Positions 2,403 through 20,285 of a stretch of DNA of 24,063 nt are shown piece after piece. The stretch covers positions 1-24,063 of IMG/VR virus record IMGVR_UViG_3300007722_001116; one strand, given 5' to 3'. A program made the position numbers and the translations under genes. This DNA is from a virus. Under the pieces are notes generated by a model, which saw only the letters and a list, made by a program, of their open reading frames with translations, was not told the DNA's origin and did no database searches. Each line of letters begins with the position of its first letter. The stretch's first letter is position 1.

Positions 2403-2856
2403 ACAGCCGTATAAGCTCCATCTGCTTACCTCGTTGGACGAGTTTATGGAACACGTCTCGTTCATTCGAGAGGGGTTTGATACGCTGGAAGAGCTCGTAC
2501 GTGTGTCATGGGATGACTTTGCTGGACAGGTATTGCAGGTTGTAAGCGGGAAGATGGAGGCAGTGTTCGCTGTGTTTTTGTCTAAGAACGACAAGCCACT
2601 GGGATTCGTGATGGTGGTGGATGACACGGCTGGCAGCATTGAGAAGGTAGCACTAATATATGCTGCGTACAGCAATGGCAAGTATGTCGGCGCAGCAGAT
2701 GAGGCGGTACATTATGCAGAAGAGTGGGCAACGGCGAAAGGCTTTGACAAACTTAGAGCATCAAGCAGACGTATGAATGGCGCAGCAATGAAACTGTTCA
2801 AGAAGAAGTTGCAATTCAAACCGGCCTTCATCGTATTTGAGAAAGGACTAAAGTAA
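2365..2856 (+). CDS. GNAT-fold acetyltransferase-like phage protein
   Basis: This 163-aa protein starts inside the end of the propeller gene; an alternative ATG lies at 2374. It looks like a small alpha/beta GNAT-type domain: an N-terminal helix pair, strands AVFAVFLSKNDKPLGFVMVV, an acidic turn, a central helix DEAVHYAEEWATAKGFDKLRA, and a C-terminal segment AAMKLFKKKLQFKPAFIVFEK, which matches the usual GNAT 'altered neighbour' ending. GNAT-like proteins are often found among podoviral internal virion genes, where they may act structurally rather than as enzymes. A clear acetyl-CoA loop (Q/RxxGxG/A) is not evident, so catalysis is doubtful. The stop overlaps the next start (TAATG at 2854-2858). 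Confidence 0.5.
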   Translation: MKTMLYRQGRGDRQPYKLHLLTSLDEFMEHVSFIREGFDTLEELVRVSWDDFAGQVLQVVSGKMEAVFAVFLSKNDKPLGFVMVVDDTAGSIEKVALIYAAYSNGKYVGAADEAVHYAEEWATAKGFDKLRASSRRMNGAAMKLFKKKLQFKPAFIVFEKGLK

Positions 2857-3992
2857 TGGACTGGAAAGACTTCTTAGAAACAGCGGAGTATGTTGTTGCG
2901 GTGACGAAGGCGGAGTACCCGGGTGGGGAAGGTGTGATGTGCGGAGGTGGGGGAGGTAGTAGTGGTGGTTTTAGTCGCACTGGTACCGGACTGCACGAGC
3001 GGTATATGACTATACCGAGCGGGCTTAACGATTTAGTTACGCAGAATGCACAGAATGCTGGAACAGACCCAGCGCTGTCTGCGTTGCAGTCGACTCTGTT
3101 TAGCAACCTCATGACGGCTGCACCAGAGACACAGCCGGGGTATAGTAATCTGCTCAGTCTCTCTGGGACAGATCCAACTTCATATGATGGCAAGTCTTCA
3201 CTCGCATCGGTGGCCCGGCGTGATCCCTATGGTGGATCGTTCGAAGCGGATACGGAGGCAGCGTACCGGAAGCGTGCGGGGGATGCAATGGCTATGGCTG
3301 AGACTGGACCGCAAGCAGTTCGAGGTGGAGGGGCACGGAGTGGTATTGCGCAGGGAGTGATGAGCGAGAGACTAGCGCAGGGGAGGGGGGCGGAAGTGCG
3401 GCAGGCGCAGCAACAGGATGTAGGGAACGTGATGAACGCGTCCATGGGAATGGCAGGCGTTGAGGGTCAGCGGACGAACAACGTGTTGCAAGCGATCAGC
3501 GGTATCCTTGGTATTACTGATAGTGTTGGCAACCGTGGGTTGGCTGCGGGTAAGCAGTTAGACTTCAACAAGCTGAACAATCTCCAACTACTCCAGCTCG
3601 CGTCTACGCTGCAAGGCCAGACGAATGACAAGCAGACTGACAACTTCTCTGGAAGCGGCGATCAGAGCGGATGGCAAGGCGGTATCAGTTGCTGCTTTAT
3701 CTTCCTTCAGGCGTTGAATGGACGGTTGCCCTGGTACATCAACCTGGCAAGGCGGGACTTCTACACGCCGGTTCGGCGAAAGGGGTATAAGTGGATGAGC
3801 ACGTGGCTAGTACCTGCGATGAAGCGCTTTGCGCTCGTACAGCGGGTGGTGAACTTCGTGCTAATCAAGCCGTTCCTGCACTATGGTGCCTACATCTACG
3901 GAGACAAATCATCGAAGCAGTCGAGTGCCATGTTCGCACCGTACTGCAAAGCTTGGCTCGCCCTATGGGGTGCGCTAGGGAAGGTAGTGTAA
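2856..3992 (+). CDS. Virion/ejection-type protein with conserved basic C-terminal domain
   Basis: The 378-aa product has a Gly-rich start (MCGGGGGSSGG from residue 28) and a helical, Gln/Ala-rich middle (about residues 130-250). The C-terminal block (about 275-378) opens with CCFIF and carries RRDFYTPVRRKGYKWM, then LVPAM and a basic, aromatic stretch. That C-terminal pattern resembles a block recalled from other phage structural proteins; no function is assigned. The chosen start overlaps the previous stop (TAATG) and has AAGGA 8 nt upstream. A second start at 2937 also has a good ribosome site (GGAAGG about 5 nt upstream) and would begin the protein directly at MCGGGGG. The position between the GNAT-like and internal-virion-like genes favours a particle component, perhaps an ejected one. 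Confidence 0.55.
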   Translation: MDWKDFLETAEYVVAVTKAEYPGGEGVMCGGGGGSSGGFSRTGTGLHERYMTIPSGLNDLVTQNAQNAGTDPALSALQSTLFSNLMTAAPETQPGYSNLLSLSGTDPTSYDGKSSLASVARRDPYGGSFEADTEAAYRKRAGDAMAMAETGPQAVRGGGARSGIAQGVMSERLAQGRGAEVRQAQQQDVGNVMNASMGMAGVEGQRTNNVLQAISGILGITDSVGNRGLAAGKQLDFNKLNNLQLLQLASTLQGQTNDKQTDNFSGSGDQSGWQGGISCCFIFLQALNGRLPWYINLARRDFYTPVRRKGYKWMSTWLVPAMKRFALVQRVVNFVLIKPFLHYGAYIYGDKSSKQSSAMFAPYCKAWLALWGALGKVV

Positions 3993-3993: not shown

Positions 3994-4875
3994 ATGGCTT
4001 ATCCTGGACTTCCAAATTGGGGGTATGGGCTTAACTTACGTCCTGCAGACTTAGGGCTTATCCTAGGCAAGTTGGGGATTAAGAATCCGTACTCGGATAT
4101 GAACGACGCGCAGATGGAGCAGATGCGTGCGCAGACGGCCGGCTTCACAGGCGCTGAGGAAAGGGCGGGTGCGTTGCAGCCGTCGACGTTGTCGAAGGCG
4201 CAGACGGAGGCAGAGTTTGCACCAAAGGTGGCACAGAGTGGGTTAGACAGTGACGTGGCCCTGAACAAGTACCGGGTGGATAGTAGCCTAGTTGGCGCGG
4301 CACAAGTACTACCCAATTTGATGAACTACACAACTGGCGCTTTCACCTCACCGTTTGGTGAAGAGATCATACGGCGGTTGCTGGGAGATAATGGTATTGT
4401 GCCGAGCAGCACGGGGACAACGGATGGAGGCTTGCCGGCAGGCGGATTAGGTGCTAGTCTGGAAAAAGCCAAAGCAGGTAGAGCAGCGACTAAAGCGGAG
4501 AAGCAACGGACTGCAGAAGGTAACAAGGGGTGGCTGGGACAGGTTATACCTTCACTGTTAGAGAACGTGCACGGCGCGCTCGGTGGGACTGTGGAAGATC
4601 CAAGTCGTGGATCAACTTCACTGTTCGATGTTGGAGCGAACATCGCTGGTGGAACGCCAACGTTACTAGAGCAACCTATCCCACCTGCTGTCTTGGCTAT
4701 TCTACAACGCTTGTTTGGCCAGCCGTCGGGTACTAGTCTAGGTGTGGGGATTGCCGCCCCGCCGCAGATACCGCAGACACCACAGACTAACGCAGTATCT
4801 CCACCCCAACAGCTAGACGAAAACCTCCTCCGTCAAGCGATGGAGCTTATCAGCCGCGACACTCAACGACGATAG
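3994..4875 (+). CDS. Putative internal virion protein, unknown family
   Basis: This 293-aa protein starts one base after the previous stop, with GGAAGG about 10-15 nt upstream. It is Ala/Gly/Gln/Pro-rich and mostly helical. It has an N-terminal LGLILGKLGI segment, a helical middle with AEFAPKVAQS and basic helices near residues 150-170 (EKAKAGRAATKAEKQR), and a Pro/Gln-rich linker (PPQIPQTPQT) before a terminal helix. There is no signal peptide, metal site or nucleotide-binding motif. No family is recognised. The composition and its place in the row of genes leading to the giant protein suggest a scaffolded internal or ejection protein; this is inference from context. Confidence 0.45.
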   Translation: MAYPGLPNWGYGLNLRPADLGLILGKLGIKNPYSDMNDAQMEQMRAQTAGFTGAEERAGALQPSTLSKAQTEAEFAPKVAQSGLDSDVALNKYRVDSSLVGAAQVLPNLMNYTTGAFTSPFGEEIIRRLLGDNGIVPSSTGTTDGGLPAGGLGASLEKAKAGRAATKAEKQRTAEGNKGWLGQVIPSLLENVHGALGGTVEDPSRGSTSLFDVGANIAGGTPTLLEQPIPPAVLAILQRLFGQPSGTSLGVGIAAPPQIPQTPQTNAVSPPQQLDENLLRQAMELISRDTQRR

Positions 4876-4879: not shown

Positions 4880-5485
4880 ATGGCATTACAAGGACTAGCA
4901 CTAATCGCATTACAGGCCATCATGAAGGGTCTGGAGAAGGGCACAGCGTCTCAGAAGGCGTTCATGAACCTTAATCCAACCGGCGTGGGACAACAGGGAA
5001 TGGGACAAGGTGAGATGCAGCCGATGGGTGGAGACATGGAACCCGGTATGGGCCAGATGAACGCAGGATTCGATCAGAGTAGCATCTTTGGTGGGTCGGC
5101 TGAAGGTGGTGCTGGGGATATACTTGCCGGCATGGCAGGCGGTGCAGCAGGTGCGGCAGCAGGCGGTGCGGGTGGTATGACGCTGGGCGACTGGAGCAAG
5201 GGTGCAGGTGGGGCGTTTGGAGAGACGTTGCCAGAGCAAGGCGGCGGCTTCTTTGGTCAGCTTGCGAGAGGTGCAACAAGCGGGGAAGGCGGCCAAGGTT
5301 TCGCACAAAACCTTGGTGCATTGGCTGTGAATAACGCTAAGCCGCTAGAGTTACCACAAGCGCCAGACATGGGACAAGGGTTGCAGATGCAGAACCTCGG
5401 CGGCGGCGGACCACTCACGGCAAGCCAGCAGTCTGCCGGACCGTCTCCACAACTACTCGCAGCGATGCTGCGATACTTCCAATAG
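4880..5485 (+). CDS. Gly/Met/Gln-rich small virion-type protein
   Basis: This 201-aa protein starts 4 nt after the previous stop without an obvious Shine-Dalgarno sequence. It opens with a short hydrophobic or amphipathic helix (LQGLALIALQAIMKGLEKG, residues 3-21), then a low-complexity stretch with GMGQGEMQPMGG and AGMAGGAAGAAAGGAGG, and ends in a short helix LLAAMLRYFQ. The Ala/Gly segment around residues 75-100 could be weakly membrane-active. No known family is recognised. Its place directly before the giant gene, and the Gly/Ala/Met bias often seen in ejected podoviral proteins, suggest it helps form or enter the ejection channel; this is inference. Confidence 0.45.
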   Translation: MALQGLALIALQAIMKGLEKGTASQKAFMNLNPTGVGQQGMGQGEMQPMGGDMEPGMGQMNAGFDQSSIFGGSAEGGAGDILAGMAGGAAGAAAGGAGGMTLGDWSKGAGGAFGETLPEQGGGFFGQLARGATSGEGGQGFAQNLGALAVNNAKPLELPQAPDMGQGLQMQNLGGGGPLTASQQSAGPSPQLLAAMLRYFQ

Positions 5486-5491: not shown

Positions 5492-8400
5492 ATGCCGGAA
5501 CCGAGCGAATTGACATATGGGCAGGTGGCTGATCTGCATCGCACGCTGGGGAAGAGCAACCCACAGCTAGCGGAACTGCCGTTGCAAGACTTTGCTGCAC
5601 TCGCTAACCAGGTTAGTGGGAGTGGGGAGTATTCAGCAGGGTTGAACGATAACTGGGTTAAGCGGACGAGTCATACGATAGATAGGATGTTCGCCCCAGT
5701 AGGCAAGCCAATAGGTGCGTTTGCGGAGTCCGTGACACGAGAGTTGGGCTATGAGAAGTACGCTGATCTGGCGAACGAGCTAGGGACTGGCCTACCGCGT
5801 GGCGCACTAGAGACTGCTGCTATGTTCACTCCTGCCGGGTGGGTAGGAAAGGGATTGACTGCGGCCGGCTTAGCCTCGAACTATGCCAATACGTACACCG
5901 CTACGGATAGCAAACTTGCCGGTGCGGCAAGTGCTGCAAGCCTTGGCCTGTTGCCGCCGATGATTAGGGCTGGTGAGAAACTTGCAATGGCGCCGTTGAA
6001 GCGAGGCTTCTGGGAGACTGTTTCTGGAATGCCGGGCGGTGCACCGGCTGTGAAGAGTGTACTACTACCTGTGGCAGAACGCTCCGCAGAGTTCGCTGGC
6101 CGGAATGTCGGTGCACTGTTGAACCAGGAGTTGGCCATCCAGAGCACGACGTTGGCAGCTACTGGTCGTCCAGCACCCTTCGATGATAGACATTACGCTG
6201 AGTTGGTGGCAGGGCAGTTGCCGTTCACGTTGCTGGAAGCGGCGGGAGTTGTGCGGCCACGGTTCCGTGGCGAGGCTGGGTCGAACGCCAGAGCGAGAGC
6301 GAACATAGAACTTCACGGTGCAGTGAGGGAAGCGACTAGAGCGGCAGAGACTGCGAACGACGCAATGCAGATGGATGTCGCGAGTACGTCTAAACGGGTA
6401 GAGAGTGTACTGAATGAGATCGCTGACCCGAAACAGCGTGCTACTGCTGCGACCGACGCGAACAAGATGTACCAGCGCGTGATGTCTGAGGTTATGATCG
6501 CCGGGACGGAAGGTCGTCCGTTGAACATGGAGCGGATCAACGCAGGCGCGACGGATAGCACTCGACGGATGGTGTCCGTCATTATGGACGACATGCTAGG
6601 TAGGCCGGAGGGGGAAAGGTTTCTGACGAGGGCAGAGGATGGTACTATTTCAGCGGTGGCGGGGTTCAATGTTGAGGAGGTTCTAGCTCGACGTGGTGGT
6701 AGGGAGAGCGCAAAGGTGCGCATCACACCGGAGGGTGGGCGAGAGTTACCACCTCTTGACTCGCTATGGCTTGGCGCAGGTGCGACAGCACGGAAAGGGT
6801 CTATGCTGGAGACGTTGATGGGTGTGGACGTACAGTCGCTAGAGCACCCAGCGCGGGTGGTCGAGGTGCTGCTTGGACCGGAGGCGGTGCAGAAACAGCA
6901 ACGTGCGTTCCAGGAGTACTTCCGCGCGGACGTCGCGGAGCCGAAGCGAGTGGCGGTGTACGGTGAGGGTGCTGCACCGAAGCCTACGCCGGCGATGACG
7001 CTAGACAGCGTGACCGACTATGGTACAGCGAAACAGTACATCTTAGAGCGGTTCTCTGCTCTAGCGAAAGGACGAAAGACTGATGAACTGGTTGAAGCGC
7101 GTCATATGCTGTATGGAGATGGTGTGTATGCGAGAGAGTCACTCGGTAAGGTCACCACGAAATCGTTCGCTGGCGCGGCTAAAGACTCCGCTCAAGTTTT
7201 CATCGGTGGAAAACCTACCGAGATGGTGCAGTACCAAGCACCGAGAACAGATGGGTCCTACTATACCGCTTTCCGTGAAGCTACACCGGGAGAACTTAAA
7301 GCGTTTGAAAAGCCAACGCTAACGAAAGCGAAGGCGGCTGAGGCGTCGCAGAAGGCGCAAGCGAGTTTTGTGCAGAAGGAGAATGCGCTTCGGCAGACCT
7401 TTGCCGAGGAGCGTCAAGCGGCAATGGATAAAGTGGGGGTGGGGAGTCTTGAGGAGTTGGCACAGAAGGCCGCTGACTCACACTCGCAAGTGGAGTATGA
7501 TCTTACTGGATTCTCCCGCCAGATCTCACCGGCGGAGCGGAAAGCTGGTGCAGTGGAGGGGCTGGTGTCGCTGTTACCGGAGGGGGAGCAGCGGACACGG
7601 TTGGAGCGGATGCTAACCCGTGGCGAGGGGGATCCGAACAGCGTCCGGCTGACGACCGCGGATGAGCTTGCGCTGTTGCAGGTAGAGGCGGAGCAGTTGA
7701 GGGTGCAGGTGACACAGCACGCACCAGAGGATGTGCGGAAGTTGCTGCACTTGGCGGATGGAGAGTATGCACAGCGATTCACCGAGCTAGCGACCACGAT
7801 TGAACGGGACGGTGGGTATAGTGGTGGAGTGGCTGCGGAGAGGTATGCCGCGCTATTAGCGAGACGGGTGAGGGATTTGCAGAGTCTACTCGGACTAACC
7901 GAAGGCGCGTATGCTAAGCACCTGGAAGCACGGTGGGAGGTGGAGGAAGGGACGGCTGTGCGGGAGGCGCAGGAGCGGCGGAGTAAGCTGTCGAAGCTAG
8001 TTGGGGAGGACCGGAAGGCGGAGACGGAGGGTGTGACGGCCGACACGGAGGCTGTACTGTTTGAGAAGATGCGAGTGCTGTCGGAGGACCCTGAGTTAAC
8101 TGGTGCGTTTGAGGGGCTGACCGATATGCTGTACCGGTTCGAGGTGACCCGGAGTGGACGTACCGGTCCCCTTGCTGACGTTGTGAGTCGGTATGGGTTG
8201 TACAAGATGTTCGACCATGCTGTTGACCTCATGGAGGGGTATAAGGATGTCAAGGCGGGGCGGGCGACGGATAACTCTAAGCGGTGGCTGGATGCGGCGA
8301 AGGGAGTTGGAGAGAGGAAAGAGCTGTACAGCAGCCCTCGTGACCCGCGGGAGGTGTTGCTGAGCGGGTTACGGAAGAAGGAGAGTAGGTTCCGGCAGAA

Positions 8401-11400
8401 GGGCGAGGGGAGTGAGTATGAGACTACGCCACTCGACCGGGCTGCCTCGTTTATGGAGATGTTGGATGATGAGCAGAGGGCGTTGCTACAAGAGGGGAGT
8501 ACAGAGTTCAGGGTGGACGATGACCTTGAGTTACAGCGGCAGATGAAAGTGGAGCAGTTTCTGGATGAAGATGAAGTACGTCGTATGGGTGAGCGCCTGA
8601 GCGGCACGGTGCGTGAAATCGAAGCGGGCACGATTGCGGATCAGGTGCGCACAGATGTGGTGGAGACACTCAAGGTGCTGCAGTTTAAGAAGGGGAAGCT
8701 GAAGAATCTGACGCTGGCGAAGATCATTATCAACCCAGTGACAGGGGAGATTAACTATCAGAAGAGCGGGAAGGTGGGATTGGTGGAGCGAGAGCGCAAG
8801 ACGACCAGCGGGATGGAGCTAGCGAACGTGCTGGAGAATACGCGTGACATTATCGTCAGTGCGAAGGAGTGGGGAGTGGAGATACGGTATGACGGGAACG
8901 GGGAGATCGTGATAGGGGTTGACGGGCAGCGGCACAGTCAGCGTGTGCTGGACGTGAAGGAGAGAGTGCTGAGGCATACTGGGAGTTACACGGAGCAGGC
9001 GACAGCCGAAGCTAACGCATACCGGGGGAATGTCACGGAGAAGATGTTGAAGGACTTCCCGGAGGCTAAGGTGGGGGATGATGTGCAAGACGCCACGAGG
9101 GCCGCACTCGTTAAACGGTTTCCAGAAGCAAGCGTAGCGACCATAGACGGGATGGCGCAGGAGGCGTTTAATGCTGCACGGTTGCGGTATGCGAACACGC
9201 TCCACAGCTTGTTCAGCGTGTGGGCAACAGGGAAGAAGGGACAGCCTAGCCCGGTGAAGAGAGTGTTGCAGGCTGCTATGGGCGAGGTGTGGGATACGAT
9301 GGTGACACCGACGAGAGACTTCGCCACAGCGAGAGTGACGAAGACGTTATGGCGGCGGCACGCCTCCCTTGACAAGAAGCTGAGGACGGCAGATGAAGTA
9401 ATCTTTGAGAAGCGGAGTGGGTATGAGACGCCTGATGCGTTCGACGCCACGACACACTTCTACTTTAAGAGTGAGTTCATGAAGCTGGGGTTGCCGGAAG
9501 GCGAGGCGTTGCTGTTTGCTGAGAGTGCGGTGCGTATCGCGCGAACGTTCGACAACATCACGAATGCTACGAAGCTCGGCCCGACGTTCAGGTCTGGTGC
9601 ACTTGGAGAAGCAGTGAACTTCCCTGGTGCTACGGCCGCCATCATGCTGACTATGTCGAACAGCAGGTTCTACAACAGCTTGCCGCATCTCGCACAGAAA
9701 CAGTTCCTCATGATGCAAGTCTTCGCACATGAGATTACACACATCCTCACTCGGCGGTCACAGTATGGAGAGTTGGGGGGTGTACAGCAAGCCGCGATGG
9801 ACGTGTTCGTGCGGAAGGTAACAGGCCTGTACGCTGGGGAGCGAGGGACGATCGTCCGTGATCTGATCGAGGCAAATGTGCCAGAGCAGTATCGCGGAGA
9901 GTTGATGGGGTATGTCGAAGCGCGCACTAGTGATGCGAGGGTGAATCCAGCAGAGTTTGTTTCGGATTATGTGGCGTTCCGCGTGCTGGGGATGGTCCGC
10001 CCTGCGGAGAGTGGGTTGAGGCGGGAGGGAGTGCGGTTCGTTCATGGGCCAGATTACCTCGCGCAGTTTGACCGGGCGCTGTTCAGTACGATGGATGACT
10101 TCGTGCGTGTGTACAAGGCGACTGATCGACTCGGCGCTGATGTGGAGTTCCTCGACAAGACGATCAGTGGCGCGTTGAAAGACCAGAAGCTGATAGATGA
10201 CGTGGGGAAGAGGATGAGTGCGCTGGCGGAAGAACGGCCAAGCGAGTATGGAGCGTTAGTGGGGCAGGGAGCGTTAGGCATGGGGGTGGATGAGGCGACT
10301 AGGTTCCTCAACGTCGATTATGGTGCAGCGGCTGTAGAGTATGCGTCTGTCGCTATGGGTAGAGGTGCGAAGGAAACGGTGGAGAGACACTTTGGTGTAT
10401 CCCCCGGTTGGATCGAGCGGACGTTCGCTCTGCCGGCTCACTTGGCCAAGCGGTATCCAGTACTCCGTCCAGCCATCGACGCGGTGTTCCGCTTCCGTCC
10501 TATGGCAAACGAGAAGGCACACTACATGGCGCTACCGATGCTGAAGGAGCACAAGATTTTCGGCCTTATCCCTGCTGGTGCGAAGCTAGATGTGGCCACC
10601 ACCGGCATCCAGTTTCTGACAAAAAACCAGAAGGCACACGACGCAGCAGTGCATATCGCGTTAGCGAAGCAGGGAACTGTGAATGCGGATGGGACTCCAG
10701 GTCAGCCAGGGAAGGTGATGTCTGATGTGGAGATGCGTGAGATTGCTACACGGTATGGTGTCACGAAGCCAGAGCACCAGCAACGGATTATTGACTTCCA
10801 TAGGAATGTGGAGAAAGTTGCACCGAGAATGAGAGAGATGCTGCTAGCGTCTATGCGAGAAATTGGTGCAATCGCGGTGGCGAGACGGCTGATGCTGACT
10901 GACAAGTCGATGAGTTCAAAGGTGGCGAAGGCGACCGGGAAGCGTATCTTTGAGCTAGTACGGGCTGCGGCATATGGGGACCAGAATGCGCTAGTCGCGT
11001 TGCAAGCGGAGACCATCGGCGGCAAGGTGATGGAGCATAGCATGGAGTTCATCAACAAGCTGAAGGCATTCGAGGAGCGGACGGAAGGGGCCGACTGGTT
11101 CATGTCCGAGATTCGGCTTGGTGAGAACATGGTTGTGTGGAGAGATCGTGCACAGAAGAAGCACGGCTCTGCTGGGTTTGAGACAGAAGGCGAGCTGGTT
11201 GCAAAACTGCAGCAGTTGGAACGAGATCCGAATGTGTCGAACATTCGTGCGTGGCGGAAGCATGACAGGAGTCAGCAGTATAGTGGGCTGAACCCAGACT
11301 TCATCACGCATATTAAGTCCATCGAGGATGCTGCGTTGCTGAAGGAACAGATTCAGGCTGGGTGGGGCGGGGATGAGATTGGACAGTTCAACTACACGCC

Positions 11401-13435
11401 GCTTGAGGCTACCCTCAAACAGGTGGAGGATAAGAGCGCCGAGCGGTATATGAAGGAGCGGAAGCTAGCGCCTGGACGGGAAGATGTGGATATGGTGAAG
11501 GGGTTCCTGACTCATATCACCAGCATGGCGAATGGGTTGGCGAAGGAGATTACTAAGGGCGAGGTGCAGCTTGCGCTGAGTGATCCGAGTATTAGGGGAA
11601 GTGACATCAATCTAAATCTAGCACGGGATCACTTCAACACGGTACTTAATCCTAGCGCAAGGGAGTTCAGTTCGTTGAAGAAGCTGAACTTCGCGTACTT
11701 CATGGGAATGAATATCTCGTCTATGTTGATCGAGCCTACGCAGGCGTTGATTGCGTTATGGCCTATGTTGACTAGGGATACTGGAAAAGTTGGTGCTGGG
11801 TTAAGTTCACTCGGTGTGGCAATGCGTATGCTCGGTACCGCTGCGACAGGGAAGGGTAAAGGGTTAGTGGAGCGGATTGCAAATGTTGACCCCGCTATGT
11901 CTCGCGGGTTACAGAAGGCTGTGCGGGAGCAGACGATTGACTTTGGTGTGATGCAGGAGTTCTACTCAGCCACGGATGATGCACTCCTCAATCTTAGGGG
12001 GTTGATGCGCGGCGGGACGGTGGGGGAGAAAGTTGGGAGGGGTGCGAAAGCGGCGCTGAACAGCTATGTGGATGTGACGAGAACCATCTATAGTCAGGTG
12101 CCGAAGCTGAACAACCTCATAGCGTATATGTCAGCCTTCGATGCCGCGAGACGGCATGGCGTGTTACAGAATGGTAAGGTGGTGAAGATGACAGAGGCTG
12201 GTGCGCATGAGTATGCCACAGACACCACCAGAGCTACCATGTACGGTGGTGGGGCAGCGGCGAAACCTATCGGGATGTTTGCCAGGGCGGGGAAGTTTCA
12301 AGGAGTGATGGGGTTAGGTTATTCGCTAGGGACGTACACCTTCGGCATACTCTCTCATTTCGCGAAGCTAGGCGCAGAGAGTATTGACCGGCGGAAGTTG
12401 CTCACTCCGGTGGAGAGGAAGGCGGCACAGAAAGCGCTGGGGCAGACTATCGCGACGCAGGTGGCGTTGGCTGGTGGGTTGGGGCTGCCTGGAACTGGAG
12501 CCGCGCTGGCGGTGTTAGAGGATATCTTTCCGGGGTTGCAGGCACGGAAGGCCGTCGAGGATGGACTGCGTGACCTGTTCAATGAGGACGAGGAGAGTGG
12601 TGGGTTGTTGACGGATTTCGCCCTCCGTGGTGCACCTTACTCTTTCGCTGGCGTTGATATGAGTAGCCGGCTGGCTATTAGTCAGGTAATGGGTGTGTCA
12701 CCCTACGATGGCTTCCGGCTTGCTAACGTGATGGGGCCAACTGGCTCCGTTGTGGAGAACATAGTAAAAGCAACCGGGCAGGCGAGTCAGGGACTAGTGG
12801 GTGATGCAGCGGAGACGATCATGCCGACTGCGTATAAGAACGTGGTGAAGTTGTGGAGGGATGGGTGGGAGGTTAAGGATAACGCGGGGAGGAAGTTGTT
12901 AGAGCCCACGCCAGGCGAGTTGATGCTTGACGCGATAGGGTTCAGGCCGGCGAGACTAACAAAGCTACGTGATGCACAAAGACAAATGCAACGAGGGGAT
13001 GAGATTGCAGCCAACGCCCAGTCGAGGTTTTACCGTGAAATGGGAGAGCAACTGTTGGCCGGTGACAGTGAAGGTGTGCGAGACGCGCTGCTCGCTAGAC
13101 AGAGTAAGGTCGAGGGGTTCAGTGCAGCCGCGGGGGCGAGGTACGTTGCAGATGCTGCGTTGAACCTGCTGCTGCCGTACGACCCTGCTCGCACCGGCAC
13201 CACTTCGAACGCCTCTGACCGTCAACGGCTGGCGCTCCGTGGTGGGTTTCAGCGAGTCAGTGAGATGGAACGGTTGCAGACGAAAAAACGCCTGGAAGCC
13301 CAAATAGGGTTCCCAGGCGCTAGGCCGTCAAATACGCAGGTGCGTTCGACGATGTTGATGGATCAACTGATGGATAGCAATCCGTTTATGTCTCGACAGG
13401 AGGCGTCTGCGATTGCTGAGGGGCGACCGTTTTAG
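5492..13435 (+). CDS. Giant 2647-aa polyvalent-like virion protein with zincin metallopeptidase motif
   Basis: This single frame encodes one third of the window. The N-terminal ~260 residues are Ala/Gly-rich with hydrophobic stretches (about 97-155). Residues ~610-1060 are highly charged and helical, coiled-coil-like. A zinc metallopeptidase signature HEITH lies at residues 1413-1417, followed by a probable third ligand at E1488 in NPAEFVSDYVA, the gluzincin-like layout. The C-terminal third has hydrophobic stretches at ~2251-2290 and ~2317-2350, then a segment RGAPYSFAGVDMSSRL (~2379) resembling C-terminal regions of phage large polyvalent proteins. Such proteins are packaged and delivered with DNA, and many counter host defence. 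N4-type virion RNA polymerase was considered, but no polymerase motif was found. The role (ejection, anti-restriction, proteolysis of self or host) is inference. The 3' end overlaps the opposing gene by 50 nt. Confidence 0.8.
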   Translation: MPEPSELTYGQVADLHRTLGKSNPQLAELPLQDFAALANQVSGSGEYSAGLNDNWVKRTSHTIDRMFAPVGKPIGAFAESVTRELGYEKYADLANELGTGLPRGALETAAMFTPAGWVGKGLTAAGLASNYANTYTATDSKLAGAASAASLGLLPPMIRAGEKLAMAPLKRGFWETVSGMPGGAPAVKSVLLPVAERSAEFAGRNVGALLNQELAIQSTTLAATGRPAPFDDRHYAELVAGQLPFTLLEAAGVVRPRFRGEAGSNARARANIELHGAVREATRAAETANDAMQMDVASTSKRVESVLNEIADPKQRATAATDANKMYQRVMSEVMIAGTEGRPLNMERINAGATDSTRRMVSVIMDDMLGRPEGERFLTRAEDGTISAVAGFNVEEVLARRGGRESAKVRITPEGGRELPPLDSLWLGAGATARKGSMLETLMGVDVQSLEHPARVVEVLLGPEAVQKQQRAFQEYFRADVAEPKRVAVYGEGAAPKPTPAMTLDSVTDYGTAKQYILERFSALAKGRKTDELVEARHMLYGDGVYARESLGKVTTKSFAGAAKDSAQVFIGGKPTEMVQYQAPRTDGSYYTAFREATPGELKAFEKPTLTKAKAAEASQKAQASFVQKENALRQTFAEERQAAMDKVGVGSLEELAQKAADSHSQVEYDLTGFSRQISPAERKAGAVEGLVSLLPEGEQRTRLERMLTRGEGDPNSVRLTTADELALLQVEAEQLRVQVTQHAPEDVRKLLHLADGEYAQRFTELATTIERDGGYSGGVAAERYAALLARRVRDLQSLLGLTEGAYAKHLEARWEVEEGTAVREAQERRSKLSKLVGEDRKAETEGVTADTEAVLFEKMRVLSEDPELTGAFEGLTDMLYRFEVTRSGRTGPLADVVSRYGLYKMFDHAVDLMEGYKDVKAGRATDNSKRWLDAAKGVGERKELYSSPRDPREVLLSGLRKKESRFRQKGEGSEYETTPLDRAASFMEMLDDEQRALLQEGSTEFRVDDDLELQRQMKVEQFLDEDEVRRMGERLSGTVREIEAGTIADQVRTDVVETLKVLQFKKGKLKNLTLAKIIINPVTGEINYQKSGKVGLVERERKTTSGMELANVLENTRDIIVSAKEWGVEIRYDGNGEIVIGVDGQRHSQRVLDVKERVLRHTGSYTEQATAEANAYRGNVTEKMLKDFPEAKVGDDVQDATRAALVKRFPEASVATIDGMAQEAFNAARLRYANTLHSLFSVWATGKKGQPSPVKRVLQAAMGEVWDTMVTPTRDFATARVTKTLWRRHASLDKKLRTADEVIFEKRSGYETPDAFDATTHFYFKSEFMKLGLPEGEALLFAESAVRIARTFDNITNATKLGPTFRSGALGEAVNFPGATAAIMLTMSNSRFYNSLPHLAQKQFLMMQVFAHEITHILTRRSQYGELGGVQQAAMDVFVRKVTGLYAGERGTIVRDLIEANVPEQYRGELMGYVEARTSDARVNPAEFVSDYVAFRVLGMVRPAESGLRREGVRFVHGPDYLAQFDRALFSTMDDFVRVYKATDRLGADVEFLDKTISGALKDQKLIDDVGKRMSALAEERPSEYGALVGQGALGMGVDEATRFLNVDYGAAAVEYASVAMGRGAKETVERHFGVSPGWIERTFALPAHLAKRYPVLRPAIDAVFRFRPMANEKAHYMALPMLKEHKIFGLIPAGAKLDVATTGIQFLTKNQKAHDAAVHIALAKQGTVNADGTPGQPGKVMSDVEMREIATRYGVTKPEHQQRIIDFHRNVEKVAPRMREMLLASMREIGAIAVARRLMLTDKSMSSKVAKATGKRIFELVRAAAYGDQNALVALQAETIGGKVMEHSMEFINKLKAFEERTEGADWFMSEIRLGENMVVWRDRAQKKHGSAGFETEGELVAKLQQLERDPNVSNIRAWRKHDRSQQYSGLNPDFITHIKSIEDAALLKEQIQAGWGGDEIGQFNYTPLEATLKQVEDKSAERYMKERKLAPGREDVDMVKGFLTHITSMANGLAKEITKGEVQLALSDPSIRGSDINLNLARDHFNTVLNPSAREFSSLKKLNFAYFMGMNISSMLIEPTQALIALWPMLTRDTGKVGAGLSSLGVAMRMLGTAATGKGKGLVERIANVDPAMSRGLQKAVREQTIDFGVMQEFYSATDDALLNLRGLMRGGTVGEKVGRGAKAALNSYVDVTRTIYSQVPKLNNLIAYMSAFDAARRHGVLQNGKVVKMTEAGAHEYATDTTRATMYGGGAAAKPIGMFARAGKFQGVMGLGYSLGTYTFGILSHFAKLGAESIDRRKLLTPVERKAAQKALGQTIATQVALAGGLGLPGTGAALAVLEDIFPGLQARKAVEDGLRDLFNEDEESGGLLTDFALRGAPYSFAGVDMSSRLAISQVMGVSPYDGFRLANVMGPTGSVVENIVKATGQASQGLVGDAAETIMPTAYKNVVKLWRDGWEVKDNAGRKLLEPTPGELMLDAIGFRPARLTKLRDAQRQMQRGDEIAANAQSRFYREMGEQLLAGDSEGVRDALLARQSKVEGFSAAAGARYVADAALNLLLPYDPARTGTTSNASDRQRLALRGGFQRVSEMERLQTKKRLEAQIGFPGARPSNTQVRSTMLMDQLMDSNPFMSRQEASAIAEGRPF
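13283..13319 (-). terminator. Intrinsic terminator of leftward operon, inside the giant gene
   Basis: Read on the minus strand, a 7-bp stem CGCCTGG/CCAGGCG is extended by an inner GGG/CCC part with one mismatch and one G-U pair, closes on a short ATTTG-region loop, and is followed at once by TTTTTT (the A-run at 13283-13288). It lies about 67 nt past the stop of the leftmost minus-strand gene. The hairpin sits within the coding sequence of the giant protein, so it has been kept under coding constraint. Confidence 0.8.
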
Positions 13436-14600
13436 CAGCCTCGATTTCACGGAACTTCGTTTCTGTTATGACGTGATCTATGCCGCCGATAGCTACACGT
13501 CGGATTTGCCCGATACTAGTCAAGTGGCTTAGGACTTGGTACAACTCGCCAGAGTTAGCATCCTTCCACAACGCGGTCATAACGTCATTGTACCGCATAA
13601 AGCCTCCACTAGCCGTCAGCATAGAGATCATCTTGGATGAGACGTCTGCTAGCTGGTTACGTCCGACGGCGCGGAACACGGCGGGGAGGTTGACAATGAT
13701 GGCGTCTATCATGGAACGGGCTAACTCGAAGAGTTCGATCGTCATGACAAGGTCGTCGCTTTGAGCTACACCCAGCAGCATAGCCACCTTCAGAATCTGG
13801 ATGTACTTTGTGCGGTCAAACGACCCAATGTCTGGGTCGGTCTTTATCTCACGAGTCATGTACCACTTCTCGTAGTGCGCCTTCGCAGCCGGGTCCCAGG
13901 AGAAGCAGCCGTACAACCTCATAAGCTCTGCACCCCGCTTGATACAGGAGTCGTAGGCAAACTTCATCTCTGGCGTTATGAGGGGGAAGGGAACACGGCG
14001 CTCGCTGTAGTCTTCCAGCACGAATATGCACCGGCGGGCGAAGCCGCTAGTGATGATGTCCGATTTGAGGTGCCGTGTGATCCAGTCTGGCACCGTGCAT
14101 CCAAGGATAGTGAAGAAGGGGTTGATGATGGTCTGGCCACCATGCCGGAGCGTCTTCTTCGTGTATGGGTCACAGTCATAGATCGTAACCCATAGGTCGA
14201 TCATCCGCGCCGGGTCGATCTCGACGAACTGACTTAGCTCTGTGGCAAAGACTGTGATTGGGGAGTACTCGTACAGACCGTCTTTCGTCTTGAGTATCTT
14301 GAGACCGGTGTCCGCTAGCATCTTGACGGTGTCCTGGGCAGACTGACAGTCAGCCGAAACAAGTGTTTCGTCTAGTCGAAGCACCATCTTCTTGCCGAGG
14401 GACATGGCCGTGGTCTTCTTGTTACCGGCAGGGCCGAGCAACACCAGGTAGAGGTTAGGGTAAACCTTGAAGTAGCCTAAGTCGATCCACACCTTGCGAC
14501 TGACAAGTGTCGAGAGTACAGCTAGCGCTGTCCACATATGGTAGTTGCGGTTCGCCTCGTTGCCTGAGGTGAACTTGTCGTAATCTGCTAGGAAGTTCAA
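13386..14600 (-). CDS. DUF3987-type ATPase, primase/helicase-like
   Basis: This 404-aa protein begins at TTG 14600. That codon overlaps the previous stop as TTGA and has AAGGA 6 nt upstream, and the product then starts MNFLADYDKFTSGNEANRNYH, the usual opening of this family. A GTG at 14615 is the alternative. Walker A is GPAGNKKTT (56-64), a Walker B-like strand is ITVFATELSQF, and an arginine-finger-like GFARR follows. The N-terminal RNYHMWTALAVLSTLVSRKVW block is typical of DUF3987 proteins, which sit in phage replication modules and act as primase-helicase-like ATPases. The C-terminus is Gln/Pro-rich. It is the last gene of the leftward operon, directly after the polymerase and a 57-aa protein, and converges on the giant gene with a 50-nt coding overlap. 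Confidence 0.8.
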   Translation of the reverse strand: MNFLADYDKFTSGNEANRNYHMWTALAVLSTLVSRKVWIDLGYFKVYPNLYLVLLGPAGNKKTTAMSLGKKMVLRLDETLVSADCQSAQDTVKMLADTGLKILKTKDGLYEYSPITVFATELSQFVEIDPARMIDLWVTIYDCDPYTKKTLRHGGQTIINPFFTILGCTVPDWITRHLKSDIITSGFARRCIFVLEDYSERRVPFPLITPEMKFAYDSCIKRGAELMRLYGCFSWDPAAKAHYEKWYMTREIKTDPDIGSFDRTKYIQILKVAMLLGVAQSDDLVMTIELFELARSMIDAIIVNLPAVFRAVGRNQLADVSSKMISMLTASGGFMRYNDVMTALWKDANSGELYQVLSHLTSIGQIRRVAIGGIDHVITETKFREIEAAKTVAPQQSQTPPVET

Positions 14601-14770
14601 TCTCCGTCCTTCCACTTTTTCCCAGCATCTAGCTTAACAAGGAAGTCTTTTGTAGTTTGATGTAATAGACTAAGGAGGATGAATTGTTCTGTGTCGTTTG
14701 CCGTACATGAATCCGAGTCGTCAAATTCAAACTCGTGATCGCAATGAGGGCAGTGTGTGTGGTGGATCAT
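14597..14770 (-). CDS. 57-aa zinc-ribbon-like protein
   Basis: This short gene fills the space between polymerase and DUF3987 ATPase exactly. Its ATG overlaps the polymerase stop (ATGA, 14767-14770) and its TGA overlaps the next TTG (TTGA, 14597-14600). GGAGG lies about 7 nt before the ATG, one of the best ribosome sites on this strand. The product starts MIHHTHCPHCDHEFEF, with CPHC, nearby His residues and a third Cys at residue 22, suggesting a small metal site, followed by an acidic stretch and one helix (EQFILLSLLHQTTKDFL). Its role is unknown; a replication accessory peptide is plausible from context. Confidence 0.7.
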   Translation of the reverse strand: MIHHTHCPHCDHEFEFDDSDSCTANDTEQFILLSLLHQTTKDFLVKLDAGKKWKDGD

Positions 14771-17373
14771 ATCTCACCCTCCGTCTCTCCCCAGCTAGGC
14801 CCGAAGGTTCCATCAAATGGAATAGTCAAAGGGATGCCGGCGATGTTGATGGGATTGTCGAACCATTCGTGTAGCTTGGTCTTTGCCCACGCTAGTTGGT
14901 CCTTCGGGAACTGGCCGCAGATTGCATCGTGTACTTGGTGGAGGGGTTCCACTATGAGAGAGCCGTCTGATCGCCTGTTCTCTGGATCGAGCCACAGACG
15001 CAGAGCAGCTTGATTAGTGAGGAAGGTTGTGTTTTGTTGCGGTTCTTCCGCCAAGTATGCCTTGAGCGTGGCGTGGTCATGGCGGCGCCCGTAAAAGCGA
15101 CGTGTGTGGCCACTTGCGCAGACCAGCGTACCGGTTTCGATAAGGGTTCTCTGGCAGTCTCTATGCCACATCCGTACGCCAGCGAACCGGCCAAGGAATA
15201 GGCGGATAAGTCGTTCGCAGATTTCTGGTTTAACATATATGGGTTTCTCTCCAAACTTGAACGAGAGTTTAAGGATCGTATCCGAGAGCGTTTCCGCTCC
15301 CATGAGGTAACTGGCACCGTGCTGGCATACCTTACACGCGAAGACTAGCCAGCCGTCAGGGTCTAGTTCGTCTTTTGCCATACGGCAAAGGTCGGGGCGG
15401 GTAAGCTTACTCACCTCTGCTCCGTGTTCGTGCATCAACGCGATGGTGTTCTTTGGTTTACAGCCAGCGTGGTAGTCGTCCAACATGGTGGGGTCGCCCA
15501 GGGCTGCGCTGCGTGCTGCGACGGTGTAGCCGTCTGCACCGACTAGGTCACATTGGAAGTACCAGTACCCAGCATCCGCTTGCCAGAACTTCCGCTGGGA
15601 CTTCGTACGGTTTTGCATGTTACCGCCTGTACCGTGAGCGGTCTCATAGGATGAGACACGGCCTGTGTCTGTGCCCACCACGTTATAGCTACACCGCATC
15701 CGGCCATCGTCATCGCACTGGAGCTTAAGTGCACTAATGCGGTCAATCTTCTGACGGAGGCGGAGCAGGCGGTAGAGACGGTCGTCCTGCGACTTAGTGT
15801 AGAGAGTCAGCATAGACAAGGCGTCTGTGCTCAGGGAGTTTGTACGCTTGCCGCGCACCTTGCGGTACTGTTTGGGCAAGCCCATGTTGTCGTACAGCAG
15901 TTGGACCATCTGCTTGTTTGAGTCGACGTTGATACCAACGCCCGTCTCCGTCTCAAGCTGCCCCCACTCAGCAGGGGTGATGTCTGGCCACCGGTCGATA
16001 ATGGCCGCTATGGCGTGGATGGAGACACGCCACGGTGCCTTGGGATTGCTGCGTAGCCCGGCGGTGTCTACGACTATCGCACGCTTCATACAGCAAGCAG
16101 TAGCGACAGTGTCGAGTAGCTCTCCTGCGCCGTGTGCAGAGAGAGAGTAGCCATCGAAGGCGAGGTTCAACTCATGCTGCGCCTCGTACACCTCCGCCTG
16201 GAGCTTCTTCCGTTCGGCGGCTACGCCGACCAGATCGAACCGCACTCCTTTAGTTTGCATGTAGAGGAAGGGCGCCAGCAACGCTACGTTTGTTCGATAG
16301 TGCTTTTCAGCGTCAGCACGTAGACGTGCTAGGATGGTGTCACGGCACTCGAACGTTACCGTGCAATCGGTGAGGCAGTACTCGAAGTGCTCCAAGCCAT
16401 ACGCCTTACGACCCGCTTTGTAGTATGGTTGGGTGGTATATATACTACATTGGAGGTCAAGTGCTTTGGGTAGTTCTGGAAAGAGTTCCCAGTGACCGAG
16501 CATGGTGTCGTCCGCTAGGCCCCGGACGTGGCAGCCTGCCCACCACGACAGCACGAACGCATCGTAGAGGTAGTTCTGAAGGATCTTCGGTACGAGCGGG
16601 TCCCGGAGCATAGTCGCGAGCGCACGCCAGATGGTGCACTCTTCGTCTAGTGTCCAGTGCGCCTTCCCGAATGGAATGATGAACGCGTTGGCGTGGGAGG
16701 TGGCCACTCCGATGCACGTGATGTTGCCCACTCCGCCTTCGATGTCCACGGAGACGGTGGAGTGGTTGCGACAGATATCGTCTAGCTGCGCGATGATGTA
16801 GGCCACAGTGGGCTGGAGTTCGTAACAGCGAGCCGGAGTCGGCACTACACTATCAGCACGTTGCGCTGCCGCGCGGGCTACGTCGAACGTGAGCAACGGT
16901 CTGTTGCTGTAATTCCGTAGGATGTTTGCCGGGTGGTAGGAGGCAACTACTTTCGGGGTGTAGAAGCCGGGTACGATTGAGCCTCTCCATGAACTAATCT
17001 TCTGTGGCCAGTCGTAGAGGTTGCCCTTACGTGGTGGGGCCACGTTGCCTTTCGTCAGGACGTGGAATGCTGCATTGCCGCAAGCGAGGACACAGTTTGG
17101 TTGTGCGATGAGCAGGTCGCTCTTTAGCTGTTCGATGCCGAGTTGGACCTCCATGTCGTCCCAGTCGAACGTGTCGAACTCGTTGTTTAACGGCCGGTGA
17201 CGGGAGACATTGAGCACAGAGACGTCTGTACGTGCTACACCAGCCTTACCGAGTAGCGCGAATAGGAGTTGTCCACTGCCGCCTACGAATGGGCGGCCTT
17301 GTTCAACTTCCTGCTTTCCTGGTGCTTCGCCTACGATGGCGAGTTTACATGGACGGATTTCGTTTGGTACCAT
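14767..17373 (-). CDS. Uracil-DNA glycosylase / 3'-5' exonuclease / family A DNA polymerase fusion
   Basis: This 868-aa replicative polymerase has three parts. Residues 1-~175 are a family 4/5-type uracil-DNA glycosylase domain: GEAPG at 15-19, GRPFVGGSGQLL, Asn in VLNVSRHRP, and SYHPA at 145-149. The Cys set (9, 94, 98) does not match the usual Fe-S pattern. Residues ~205-350 are a DnaQ-like proofreading exonuclease with D210-x-E212, N267/D271 and Y332-x3-D336 all present. Residues ~480-868 are the Pol I-type polymerase: motif A D609-LVGA-D614, motif B K681...H685-G686..Y689, motif C H815-D816-A817. The usual steric-gate Glu is Asp, the O-helix aromatic is His, and HDE is HDA. SPO1-type phages also carry a UDG-like domain on their polymerase. 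The start overlaps the upstream gene by 43 nt because the conserved LAIVGEAPG needs it. Confidence 0.92.
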   Translation of the reverse strand: MVPNEIRPCKLAIVGEAPGKQEVEQGRPFVGGSGQLLFALLGKAGVARTDVSVLNVSRHRPLNNEFDTFDWDDMEVQLGIEQLKSDLLIAQPNCVLACGNAAFHVLTKGNVAPPRKGNLYDWPQKISSWRGSIVPGFYTPKVVASYHPANILRNYSNRPLLTFDVARAAAQRADSVVPTPARCYELQPTVAYIIAQLDDICRNHSTVSVDIEGGVGNITCIGVATSHANAFIIPFGKAHWTLDEECTIWRALATMLRDPLVPKILQNYLYDAFVLSWWAGCHVRGLADDTMLGHWELFPELPKALDLQCSIYTTQPYYKAGRKAYGLEHFEYCLTDCTVTFECRDTILARLRADAEKHYRTNVALLAPFLYMQTKGVRFDLVGVAAERKKLQAEVYEAQHELNLAFDGYSLSAHGAGELLDTVATACCMKRAIVVDTAGLRSNPKAPWRVSIHAIAAIIDRWPDITPAEWGQLETETGVGINVDSNKQMVQLLYDNMGLPKQYRKVRGKRTNSLSTDALSMLTLYTKSQDDRLYRLLRLRQKIDRISALKLQCDDDGRMRCSYNVVGTDTGRVSSYETAHGTGGNMQNRTKSQRKFWQADAGYWYFQCDLVGADGYTVAARSAALGDPTMLDDYHAGCKPKNTIALMHEHGAEVSKLTRPDLCRMAKDELDPDGWLVFACKVCQHGASYLMGAETLSDTILKLSFKFGEKPIYVKPEICERLIRLFLGRFAGVRMWHRDCQRTLIETGTLVCASGHTRRFYGRRHDHATLKAYLAEEPQQNTTFLTNQAALRLWLDPENRRSDGSLIVEPLHQVHDAICGQFPKDQLAWAKTKLHEWFDNPINIAGIPLTIPFDGTFGPSWGETEGEI

Positions 17374-17552
17374 AGCGTTCGTTGTGCTTGTTTAGCGGCG
17401 CAGAGGAAGCAGACGTCCTCACGAACAATTTCGTTGCCCGGAAGGATGTTGCACTGGTCGAGGGTGAGTGAGGTGAAGCAGAGACAGCAGTAGAGACACT
17501 GGTGCTCTGAACGTTTGAGGCCGTGAAGGGCGCAAACTGGGTCATGAGTCAT
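17331..17552 (-). CDS. Cys-rich small protein, putative zinc-binding
   Basis: This 73-aa protein starts in an ATGA overlap with the stop of the preceding gene. It has eight cysteines, arranged as C7, a cluster HQCLYCCLC at about 18-25, then C34 and a CFLC pair near residue 48-51, with nearby His residues. This fits one or two zinc sites, for example an HNH-like or treble-clef scaffold without a recognisable catalytic motif. The last 43 nt overlap the start of the polymerase gene in another frame. No family is recognised. It belongs to the run of small genes between methyltransferase and polymerase. Confidence 0.6.
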   Translation of the reverse strand: MTHDPVCALHGLKRSEHQCLYCCLCFTSLTLDQCNILPGNEIVREDVCFLCAAKQAQRTLWYQTKSVHVNSPS

Positions 17553-17770
17553 CGTGGTAGGTGAACCTTGTAGTTCTGTACATTATCCGTGCCATACCGC
17601 CACCCCGGTAGCCCGCAAAGACCACGATGAAGGCGGAGGCCATCCGGTGGGCACTTCGTTTCCCGGTCTACACATAGCTGGCAGACCGGTCCGACGTTGT
17701 CCACCTTCACGGCGACACTGCCGCAAGGACAGTGGTAGAGATGCGCTTGGTAGCGCGGGTGAGTGCTCAT
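17549..17770 (-). CDS. Small zinc-ribbon-like protein
   Basis: This 73-aa protein opens with YHCPCGSVAVKV and then PVCQLC, giving two CxC/CxxC pairs (about residues 14-16 and 30-33) spaced as in zinc ribbons, plus two later Cys (C40 and C52). The C-terminal half is basic with Trp and Tyr. Both ends are 4-nt ATGA overlaps with neighbours, which fixes the start and supports expression. Function is unknown; nucleic-acid or protein binding through the metal site is a reasonable guess. Confidence 0.6.
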   Translation of the reverse strand: MSTHPRYQAHLYHCPCGSVAVKVDNVGPVCQLCVDRETKCPPDGLRLHRGLCGLPGWRYGTDNVQNYKVHLPR

Positions 17771-17937
17771 GTGGTGTAGTGGAATGTGACACAGCCAAGA
17801 GCGAACCAGAACACAGCGCCTAGCCAGTACAAGCTACATATACCGTCTAGCTCCTTTGAGGTGTACTCTTTGTGTCCGAATTCAACCACAGCTGCTATTG
17901 CTAGCACCCAGATTAGGAGGGGGTAGAAGTTGTTCAC
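17767..17937 (-). CDS. 56-aa two-span membrane protein
   Basis: This short GTG-started frame exactly fills the gap between two neighbours: the GTG overlaps the previous stop as GTGA (17934-17937) and its TGA overlaps the next start as ATGA (17767-17770). The product has two hydrophobic segments, PLLIWVLAIAAVV (about residues 6-18) and WLGAVFWFALGCVTF (about 38-52), joined by a charged loop GHKEYTSKELDG. It lies in the replication arm, with no endolysin next to it. A holin-like or membrane-anchoring role is possible but unproven. Confidence 0.6.
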   Translation of the reverse strand: MNNFYPLLIWVLAIAAVVEFGHKEYTSKELDGICSLYWLGAVFWFALGCVTFHYTT

Positions 17938-18119
17938 TCTGGTCTAAGCCTTTCACAAAGGGTATCGAGGATGTCCTCGAAGTCAGCATTGATGTCGTCG
18001 AAGTACGTATAGCATCCATTCGTCTTGCGGTAGACGCAAGAGACGGAGTAGTCAAAGTCGTCAATCTCGATGATGTAGTCGACGCCGTTGTAGGTAAGTT
18101 TAATTTTGATCGGGGTCAT
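17934..18119 (-). CDS. Small acidic protein, unknown
   Basis: This 61-aa protein starts at an ATG that overlaps the previous gene by 20 nt; a longer frame to 18167 exists but would overlap more. It opens MTPIKIKLTYNGVDYIIEID, a beta hairpin-like start, then an acidic helix (DDINADFEDILDTLCERL). No family is recognised. Its first bases (ATGACCCCGATC) nearly repeat those of the gene upstream (ATGACCCCGATT), which hints that the start region was copied in the same local duplication that made the Cys-rich pair next door. Confidence 0.55.
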   Translation of the reverse strand: MTPIKIKLTYNGVDYIIEIDDFDYSVSCVYRKTNGCYTYFDDINADFEDILDTLCERLRPE

Positions 18120-18315
18120 TTGTGCTTGTTGGTGAGAATAGACGAGCGTCTGGCCCGCAAAGACCATAACGCATCCAGTGACAGGTTCTGGATTGAAGGT
18201 CGCCGGTTACTGGGTCTATTTGTGCTTCCGCAAAGCAGACGTGTGGGTTAGAGATGGAGCCAAAGATGGCTTTATGGTGTCTGCAGTTAATACATAGTTT
18301 CATAATCGGGGTCAT
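18100..18315 (-). CDS. Cys-rich small protein, second member of tandem pair
   Basis: This 71-aa protein starts in an ATGA overlap. After MTPI it reads MKLCINCRHH, then a Cys near residue 27, then DPVTG, then TCHWMR and GLCG. This layout (MKLCxNC, C, DxVTG, C, CG) matches small phage metal-binding proteins recalled from other genomes. It is a clear paralog of the gene just upstream in transcription: the opening, the DPVTG turn, the TC-x-W and the CG end all align. The extra N-terminal MTPI may be an artefact, with M5 at 18303 as the true paralogous start. Function is unknown; zinc binding is inferred. Confidence 0.65.
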   Translation of the reverse strand: MTPIMKLCINCRHHKAIFGSISNPHVCFAEAQIDPVTGDLQSRTCHWMRYGLCGPDARLFSPTSTNDPDQN

Positions 18316-18551
18316 ATACGATTCTTGTTATATCCTAGCCAATGCCACCATCTTTGTGTTAAGATAGGAGGTAATGCTTGCTCGTGGTGTCTTGCCGCTA
18401 TACCGCAACTACTGCCAGCTGTTCTCGCCCAACTACAGGTGTAGAACTTTGGTGTTCCGGTTACTGGATCTACGTATTCAGTCTTTTCACAAAAAGGGGC
18501 TATGTCTGGTCCTAGGTTCATGATATACTTACAGTTGACGCATAGTTTCAT
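18312..18551 (-). CDS. Cys-rich small protein, first member of tandem pair
   Basis: This 79-aa protein begins MKLCVNCKYI, with further Cys before TEYVDPVTGTPKFYTCSWAR and SSCG. It shares the order MKLCxNC / C / DPVTG / TCxW / CG with its downstream neighbour, so the two arose by tandem duplication. The C-terminal tail after residue 55 (Trp/His-rich) is not shared. Both ends are ATGA overlaps. Four Cys suggest one zinc site. No enzymatic motif is seen. Confidence 0.65.
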   Translation of the reverse strand: MKLCVNCKYIMNLGPDIAPFCEKTEYVDPVTGTPKFYTCSWARTAGSSCGIAARHHEQALPPILTQRWWHWLGYNKNRI

Positions 18552-20251: not shown

Positions 20252-20254
20252 GAG

Positions 20255-20280: not shown

Positions 20281-20285
20281 AGTGG

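Follow-up and report, generated by a model that had tools for sequence, protein, structure and literature searches.

The window is a 24,063-nucleotide stretch of viral DNA (IMG/VR record IMGVR_UViG_3300007722_001116) from a podovirus, a short-tailed phage whose sequence comes solely from metagenomes. Its plus strand encodes a giant protein of 2,647 residues at positions 5492–13435. A preliminary description, made from the letters alone, had proposed this protein, and the frame is real and continuous: it opens with an ATG and runs uninterrupted, with 46–148 stops in the other frames. A near-identical copy of the gene is present in the 39.8-kb IMG/VR contig IMGVR_UViG_3300007516_000048. The two copies differ at 21 synonymous and 4 non-synonymous codons (dN/dS ~0.06), showing that the giant is one functional, intact gene under purifying selection.

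The giant gene is the final gene of the late block, following the capsid, tail and internal-protein genes. Upstream of it in the window, all on the plus strand, lie genes for a 640-aa tail or virion structural protein (480–2402; phrog_3287, E 4e-26), a GNAT acetyltransferase in the position of T7 gp13 (2365–2856), a 378-aa virion-region protein with a CCFIFL motif and four cysteines (2856–3992), a 293-aa cysteine-free protein that is probably an internal virion protein (3994–4875), and a 201-aa cysteine-free protein with no homologue found that is probably a small ejection or internal protein (4880–5485). This agrees with the earlier remark that the giant directly follows virion-type genes. 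A convergent primase/polymerase operon adjoins the giant gene on its other side. The place of the gene corresponds to that of T7 gene 16 (gp16), the last gene of the internal-protein block, and the giant is encoded among virion genes, one of the traits that define polyvalent proteins (Iyer et al. 2017).

Several smaller features accompany this arrangement. The 3′ end of the giant gene shares 50 bases (13386–13435) with a convergent primase-type gene (DUF3987). The 378-aa protein has a glycine-rich N terminus and the CCFIFLQALNGRLPWYI motif, and retains its cysteines in contrast to its neighbours. A GNAT protein in the T7 gp13 position is also found in CRP-810 (gp40), SopranoGao (SopranoGao_10) and epsilon15 (gp13, from an HHpred note in the record).

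The left part of the genome is supplied by IMGVR_UViG_3300007516_000048, which encodes a terminase large subunit and a major capsid protein, together with a small terminase subunit assigned by position and two further frames placed like portal (617 aa) and scaffold (249 aa, acidic) genes. Genes that look to be of glycosyltransferase and methyltransferase type lie between the terminase genes and the portal-position frame (7143–10041 of this contig, L004). A search of bacterial genomes found no prophage copies.

Searching with the capsid protein retrieves five cultured phages, in all of which the late block ends with or near a giant gene. In four of the five the giant adjoins a convergent polymerase/primase operon (Vibrio phage VS-ABTNL-3, 1,790 aa; Microcystis phage Mel-JY34, 1,894 aa; a Desulfofustis phage, 1,577 aa; and Caulobacter phage Kuura, 1,358 aa); the 2,016-aa giant of Roseobacter phage CRP-810 has a few more genes downstream of it. 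The VS-ABTNL-3 giant (PVS_24, 17815–23187) is labelled 'putative DNA methylase', yet we found no methylase domain in it. The label probably derives from longer family members, and it is not applicable to the window giant. The CRP-810 giant (gp35, 16062–22112) has two HExxH motifs and, close to the C terminus, a match to ART-PolyVal (ADP-ribosyltransferase) that falls below threshold.

Residues 1875–2533 of the window giant (11114–13090) match the NCBIfam PLxRFG domain NF032893 ('tail-700') with 109.1 bits (E 2.1e-31), above the curated NCBI cut-off of 100 bits. On sequence grounds, the giant is therefore one of the PLxRFG or 'DarB-like' giants, which substantiates the previously noted resemblance of its C-terminal region to phage large polyvalent proteins. 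The motif that gives the domain its name is degenerate: its position reads WFMSEIRLGENMVVW in the window giant, with the core SEIRLG, and MPERRFGQW in the relative L021 described below, so that only R-x-G is kept relative to the literal YFPLxRFG. By BLASTP, residues 2046–2541 match the VS-ABTNL-3 giant directly (E 8e-12), and the VS-ABTNL-3 and Mel-JY34 giants fall in phrog_11358/10089, PHROGs of 2,400–4,600-residue proteins, one of them named DarB-like antirestriction. Other PLxRFG relatives include the giants of F116, H66, PEp14, SopranoGao, PBC5, Atu_ph08, Y7 and Mwe-JY07, and the record of H66 gp60 annotates it as a virion component 'verified by mass spectrometry'. In the relatives L026–L031 the alignment is continuous over the C-terminal ~900 residues, and the middle varies in length and content.

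The window protein itself gave no match in tblastn searches of phages or in Pfam, PHROGs and PDB sequence searches; Pfam matches to YrbL (0.03) and YqaJ (0.12) were rejected as chance. Profile searches detect no homology between the C-terminal module and N4 vRNAP or T7 gp16. No LPD domain, which is common but not obligatory in polyvalent proteins, reaches the Pfam gathering score in the giant, and we found in it no counter-defence enzyme (methylase, helicase or ART) of the kinds that some relatives carry or are annotated with, no vRNAP Pfam domains such as N4 has, and no SLT or N-terminal lytic transglycosylase domain by Pfam. Polyvalent proteins are recognised by several disparate catalytic domains; in the giant the sole enzyme candidate is a zincin, and more than 1,000 residues carry no assignment. 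The giant adds one more member to a class already known, the PLxRFG/polyvalent giants with a zincin.

The nearest other relative is the 3,889-aa giant of IMGVR_UViG_3300005582_000023 (L021), which matches the window giant over residues 7–103 (residues 5–103 of L021; 33% identity, E 7e-11) and again over residues 1640–2641 (25% identity, E 9e-62); BLAST between the two matched nothing between residues 103 and 1640. The middle of L021 contains LPD23 (E 5e-11), two additional HExxH motifs and a stretch that weakly matches a D12 methylase. Because L021 matches both ends and not the middle, the comparison suggests constant delivery ends that flank exchangeable cargo. We accordingly divide the giant into an N-terminal cap (residues 1–160, 5492–5971), a middle region (residues 161–1300, 5972–9391) and, after the zincin-like region, a predicted helical, conserved C-terminal module common to the PLxRFG relatives (residues 1562–2633, 10175–13390), which probably has a packaging or ejection role. 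Constancy of the C terminus is well supported, and that of the putative cap comes from the single comparison with L021. The preliminary description had stated that more than 1,000 N-terminal residues lack a recognised domain; this largely stands, except that ~100 residues form the cap common to L021. In the middle region tblastn, Pfam, PHROGs and BLAST against L021 found no homologue or domain, and 33–38% of residues at 901–1200 are charged, as expected from the charged middle noted earlier. In relatives this position is taken by what we read as exchangeable cargo.

Several other members of the family bear cell-wall hydrolases in their N-terminal part: SLT in the PEp14, SopranoGao and L030 giants, and Hydrolase_2 plus M15 in the Atu_ph08 giant. 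For T7 gp16, the annotation gives an endolysin domain. These domains point to a role for the family in crossing the envelope.

The candidate metallopeptidase region spans residues ~1330–1530 (9479–10081). It contains HEITH at residues 1413–1417 (9728–9742), which had been pointed out before and is the only HExxH in the giant, against 0.04 expected from composition; an HExxH followed 40–130 residues on by E[FYW]x[AS] arose in 5 of 2,000 shuffles. H1413, E1414 and H1417 are invariant among nine aligned zincin segments (the window's included). The earlier nomination of E1488 (codon 9953–9955) as the probable third zinc ligand gains support from the relatives, since its column holds a Glu in E[FYW]x[AS] context in eight of the nine segments, again counting the window. 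Such a Glu lies 55–95 residues past HExxH in the window giant, L021, VS-ABTNL-3, Mel-JY34, CRP-810, N4 vRNAP, L027–L029, L031 and PEp14, a context that occurs in 9.6% of random stretches; H66, SopranoGao and Mwe-JY07 do not have the exact context. The giant thus has the HExxH and downstream Glu expected of a gluzincin, and the full H, E, H, E ligand set is retained at 12–19% identity to the window segment. The distance from HExxH to the C terminus is 1,083–1,294 residues in most zincin-bearing relatives (1,357 in L027). There is no HExxH in the giants of L026, L030, L043, Y7, PBC5 (orf23), Atu_ph08, the Desulfofustis phage and Kuura.

Profile evidence for the fold is less direct. The window segment matches no curated peptidase family in Pfam, and an HMM made from diverse zincin segments, the window's left out, did not separate the window from shuffled sequences. 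The weak matches that orthologous segments have in Pfam are largely to metallopeptidases (best 0.0017), and among the matches of a zincin profile to the PDB are fragilysin and matrix metalloproteinases, with HExxH aligned and weak E values of 0.35–1.8. AlphaFold models were unusable for the fold (pLDDT 45.6 for residues 1322–2520 with 8 sequences; 43.8 for the zincin segment with 9 sequences). Of the embedded zincin proposed in the preliminary description, the motif, third Glu, position and metallopeptidase-biased weak matches hold up, and the Pfam and HMM tests of the window segment do not add to them. Together the data support a gluzincin-like putative metallopeptidase in the giant.

The giant contains no cysteine in 2,647 residues, whereas the other proteins of the same phage that we read contain 117 in 7,948. 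The chance of finding none is ~1e-11 at the 0.95% rate of other ORFs of at least 300 aa in ten records, and 3e-6 at the 0.47% rate of the phage's own head and tail proteins. Across 25 giants, N4 vRNAP included, there are two cysteines in 67,573 residues. The C-terminal parts of the giants are homologous and hence not independent in this count, yet their middles, which belong to unrelated kinds, are likewise cysteine-free. Cysteine is also absent from most of the other podoviral ejection proteins that we checked, namely T7 gp15 and gp16, N4 vRNAP, gp51 and gp52, P22 gp7, gp16 and gp20, phiKMV gp35–37, and Syn5 gp44 and gp45; T7 gp14 has one. By contrast, P1 DarB has nine cysteines in 2,255 residues and DdrB two in 995. 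The epsilon15 ejection-type proteins gp14–17 (11586–19329) carry one or two each, against the podoviral pattern, showing that cysteine exclusion is a strong tendency and not a law; we reject absolute absence on account of epsilon15, T7 gp14 and the single cysteines in H66 gp60 and Atu_ph08.

The lack of cysteine in N4-like vRNAPs was noted in 2010 and tied to the route taken through tail or periplasm (PMC3715699), and was noted again for phage Presley (PMC5795418); the word cysteine does not appear in a 2022 review of ejection proteins (PMC8954989). A non-exhaustive search of the literature found no prior statement on cysteine absence in polyvalent giants, and as far as that search shows, the pattern beyond N4-like vRNAPs is new here. 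It extends a remark on N4-like polymerases to a testable tendency across many unrelated ejected proteins, and could help to pick out ejected effectors where phage genomes lack annotation. The absence of cysteine is likely to be a signature of crossing the cell envelope. A broader account, which we find plausible though somewhat short of probable, is that podovirus giants serve as a vehicle whose ends stay constant while the middle can be exchanged, and that any domain entering it loses its cysteines because the chain passes unfolded through the oxidising periplasm. If so, proteins that short-tailed phages eject could be recognised by their lack of cysteine, and the cysteines retained in P1 DarB would be explained by contractile-tail delivery.

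These observations bear on where the giant acts. It had been suggested that this polyvalent giant is possibly ejected at infection; to that suggestion can now be added its T7 gp16 position, the NF032893 match, the mass-spectrometry-verified relative H66 gp60 and the complete exclusion of cysteine, which fits an ejected protein. We infer that the giant is very probably carried in the particle and enters the bacterium with the DNA. That it is instead a late cytoplasmic protein outside the particle is very improbable given its gene position, its family, the verified relative and the cysteine exclusion. Relative to the preliminary description, our analysis contributes the link to a family with a mass-spectrometry-verified member, the reading of the ends as constant, evidence from relatives in favour of E1488, and the pattern of cysteine absence.

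Comparison with known systems places the giant more precisely. It resembles the PLxRFG giants (H66 gp60, F116, PEp14 gp27, SopranoGao gp6 and PBC5 orf23) in the C-terminal ~700–1,000 residues, the virion-gene neighbourhood, the possession of at most one cysteine and a variable N-terminal part, and several of them have HExxH; it differs from them in its middle and degenerate motif, and many are 3,800–5,000 aa long with wall hydrolases and annotated methylase or helicase domains. L021 is alike in its homologous ends, a collinear zincin with the same third-Glu motif and the lack of cysteine, but has an unrelated middle with LPD23, a D12-methylase-like stretch and two more HExxH motifs. PVS_24 (VS-ABTNL-3, 1790 aa) and XAI96480 (Mel-JY34, 1894 aa) share the gene position, the order of zincin then PLxRFG module and the absence of cysteine, but have a shorter N-terminal part. 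N4 vRNAP (gp50) is likewise a giant, ejected, cysteine-free protein with the same downstream Glu motif, and in its structure an HExxH subdomain (2124–2375) stands ahead of a large helical C-terminal domain, C2 (PMC12633501); only this layout is common, since its C-terminal module has no detectable homology and the window giant has no RNA polymerase. T7 gp16 is similar in gene position, in lacking cysteine and in being a large internal protein, but is half the size, shows no homology that we found, and has a transglycosylase/endolysin domain that the window giant lacks. P1 DdrB and DarB resemble the giant by features, as phage-delivered polyvalent proteins, and DdrB, whose HExxH is C-terminal, undergoes processing (PMC5512222), but P1 is a myovirus.

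The interpretation that we favour, and hold to be about evenly balanced between right and wrong, is that the giant is a podovirus internal (ejection) protein with constant ends and a cargo middle, whose zincin most likely cleaves the giant itself. The protein would be packed in the head, would exit through the tail before or together with the genome, and would cross the host envelope at least partly unfolded. The N-terminal cap and the ~1,080-residue helical C-terminal PLxRFG module would be the constant packaging and ejection parts, and the residues between them cargo that is swapped from phage to phage. Lying where the cargo meets the C-terminal module, the zincin would bind zinc and cleave the giant in the head or after delivery, freeing the cargo. 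Zincin metallopeptidases are the commonest domain of polyvalent proteins and have been proposed to release polyprotein domains, for which the cleavage of P1 DdrB is the cited precedent (PMC5512222). On the other side, N4 vRNAP is packaged unprocessed despite a zincin-like domain in a similar place (PMC5512222), the AlphaFold models (pLDDT 46 and 44) lend the zincin fold no support, and we identified no catalytic cargo in the giant that would need release. Nor can processing be general, because several relatives have no HExxH; the delivery module evidently works without a zincin in L026, L030, L043 and several annotated giants.

Self-processing at the junction of cargo and delivery module is the most likely function of the zincin, and an attack on host proteins its main rival. 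In this alternative, which we consider rather unlikely, the zincin is an effector carried by the giant and, once ejected, cleaves one or more host proteins concerned with defence or takeover. Iyer et al. list host proteins as alternative targets of polyvalent metallopeptidases (PMC5512222), relatives differ in whether they have a zincin and in its form, as expected of cargo, and no other catalytic domain is recognisable in the window giant. However, its near-constant position, mostly 1,083–1,294 residues from the C terminus, suits junction processing better than free cargo.

We think it improbable that the domain derives from a zincin but has a structural role in the packaging and ejection module, with no important proteolysis, as is perhaps the case in N4 vRNAP. 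That protein has HELVH at 2228 and a Glu in the same motif at 2310, followed by the large helical C2 domain (PMC12633501), and its unprocessed packaging (PMC5512222) is what such a role would predict. Against this, the ligand set is kept at 12–19% identity, suggesting retained zinc chemistry, and relatives with the same C-terminal module lack the domain, indicating that it is structurally dispensable. It is very improbable that the zincin acts at ejection to open up the cell wall or an envelope protein, substituting for the SLT, Hydrolase_2 or M15 domains of PEp14, SopranoGao, L030 and Atu_ph08, none of which was found in the giant or its tested neighbours: HExxH zincins generally cleave proteins rather than peptidoglycan, and SLT occurs together with HExxH in PEp14 and SopranoGao, so one is no clean replacement for the other.

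How proteins of 2,500–5,000 residues leave the head through a tail of ~35 Å, and how they act once inside the bacterium, is a question still to be answered (PMC12633501). The window giant is comparatively compact and has few recognised domains beyond the delivery module and peptidase, and for that reason cleavage and delivery could be separable in tests.

Two gene fusions lie elsewhere in the window on the minus strand: a family A DNA polymerase with an N-terminal uracil-DNA glycosylase domain (14767–17373; UDG 1e-20, DNA_pol_A 3e-13), and a DNA methyltransferase joined to a ParB-like domain, with PHROG matches to both parts (18748–20127).
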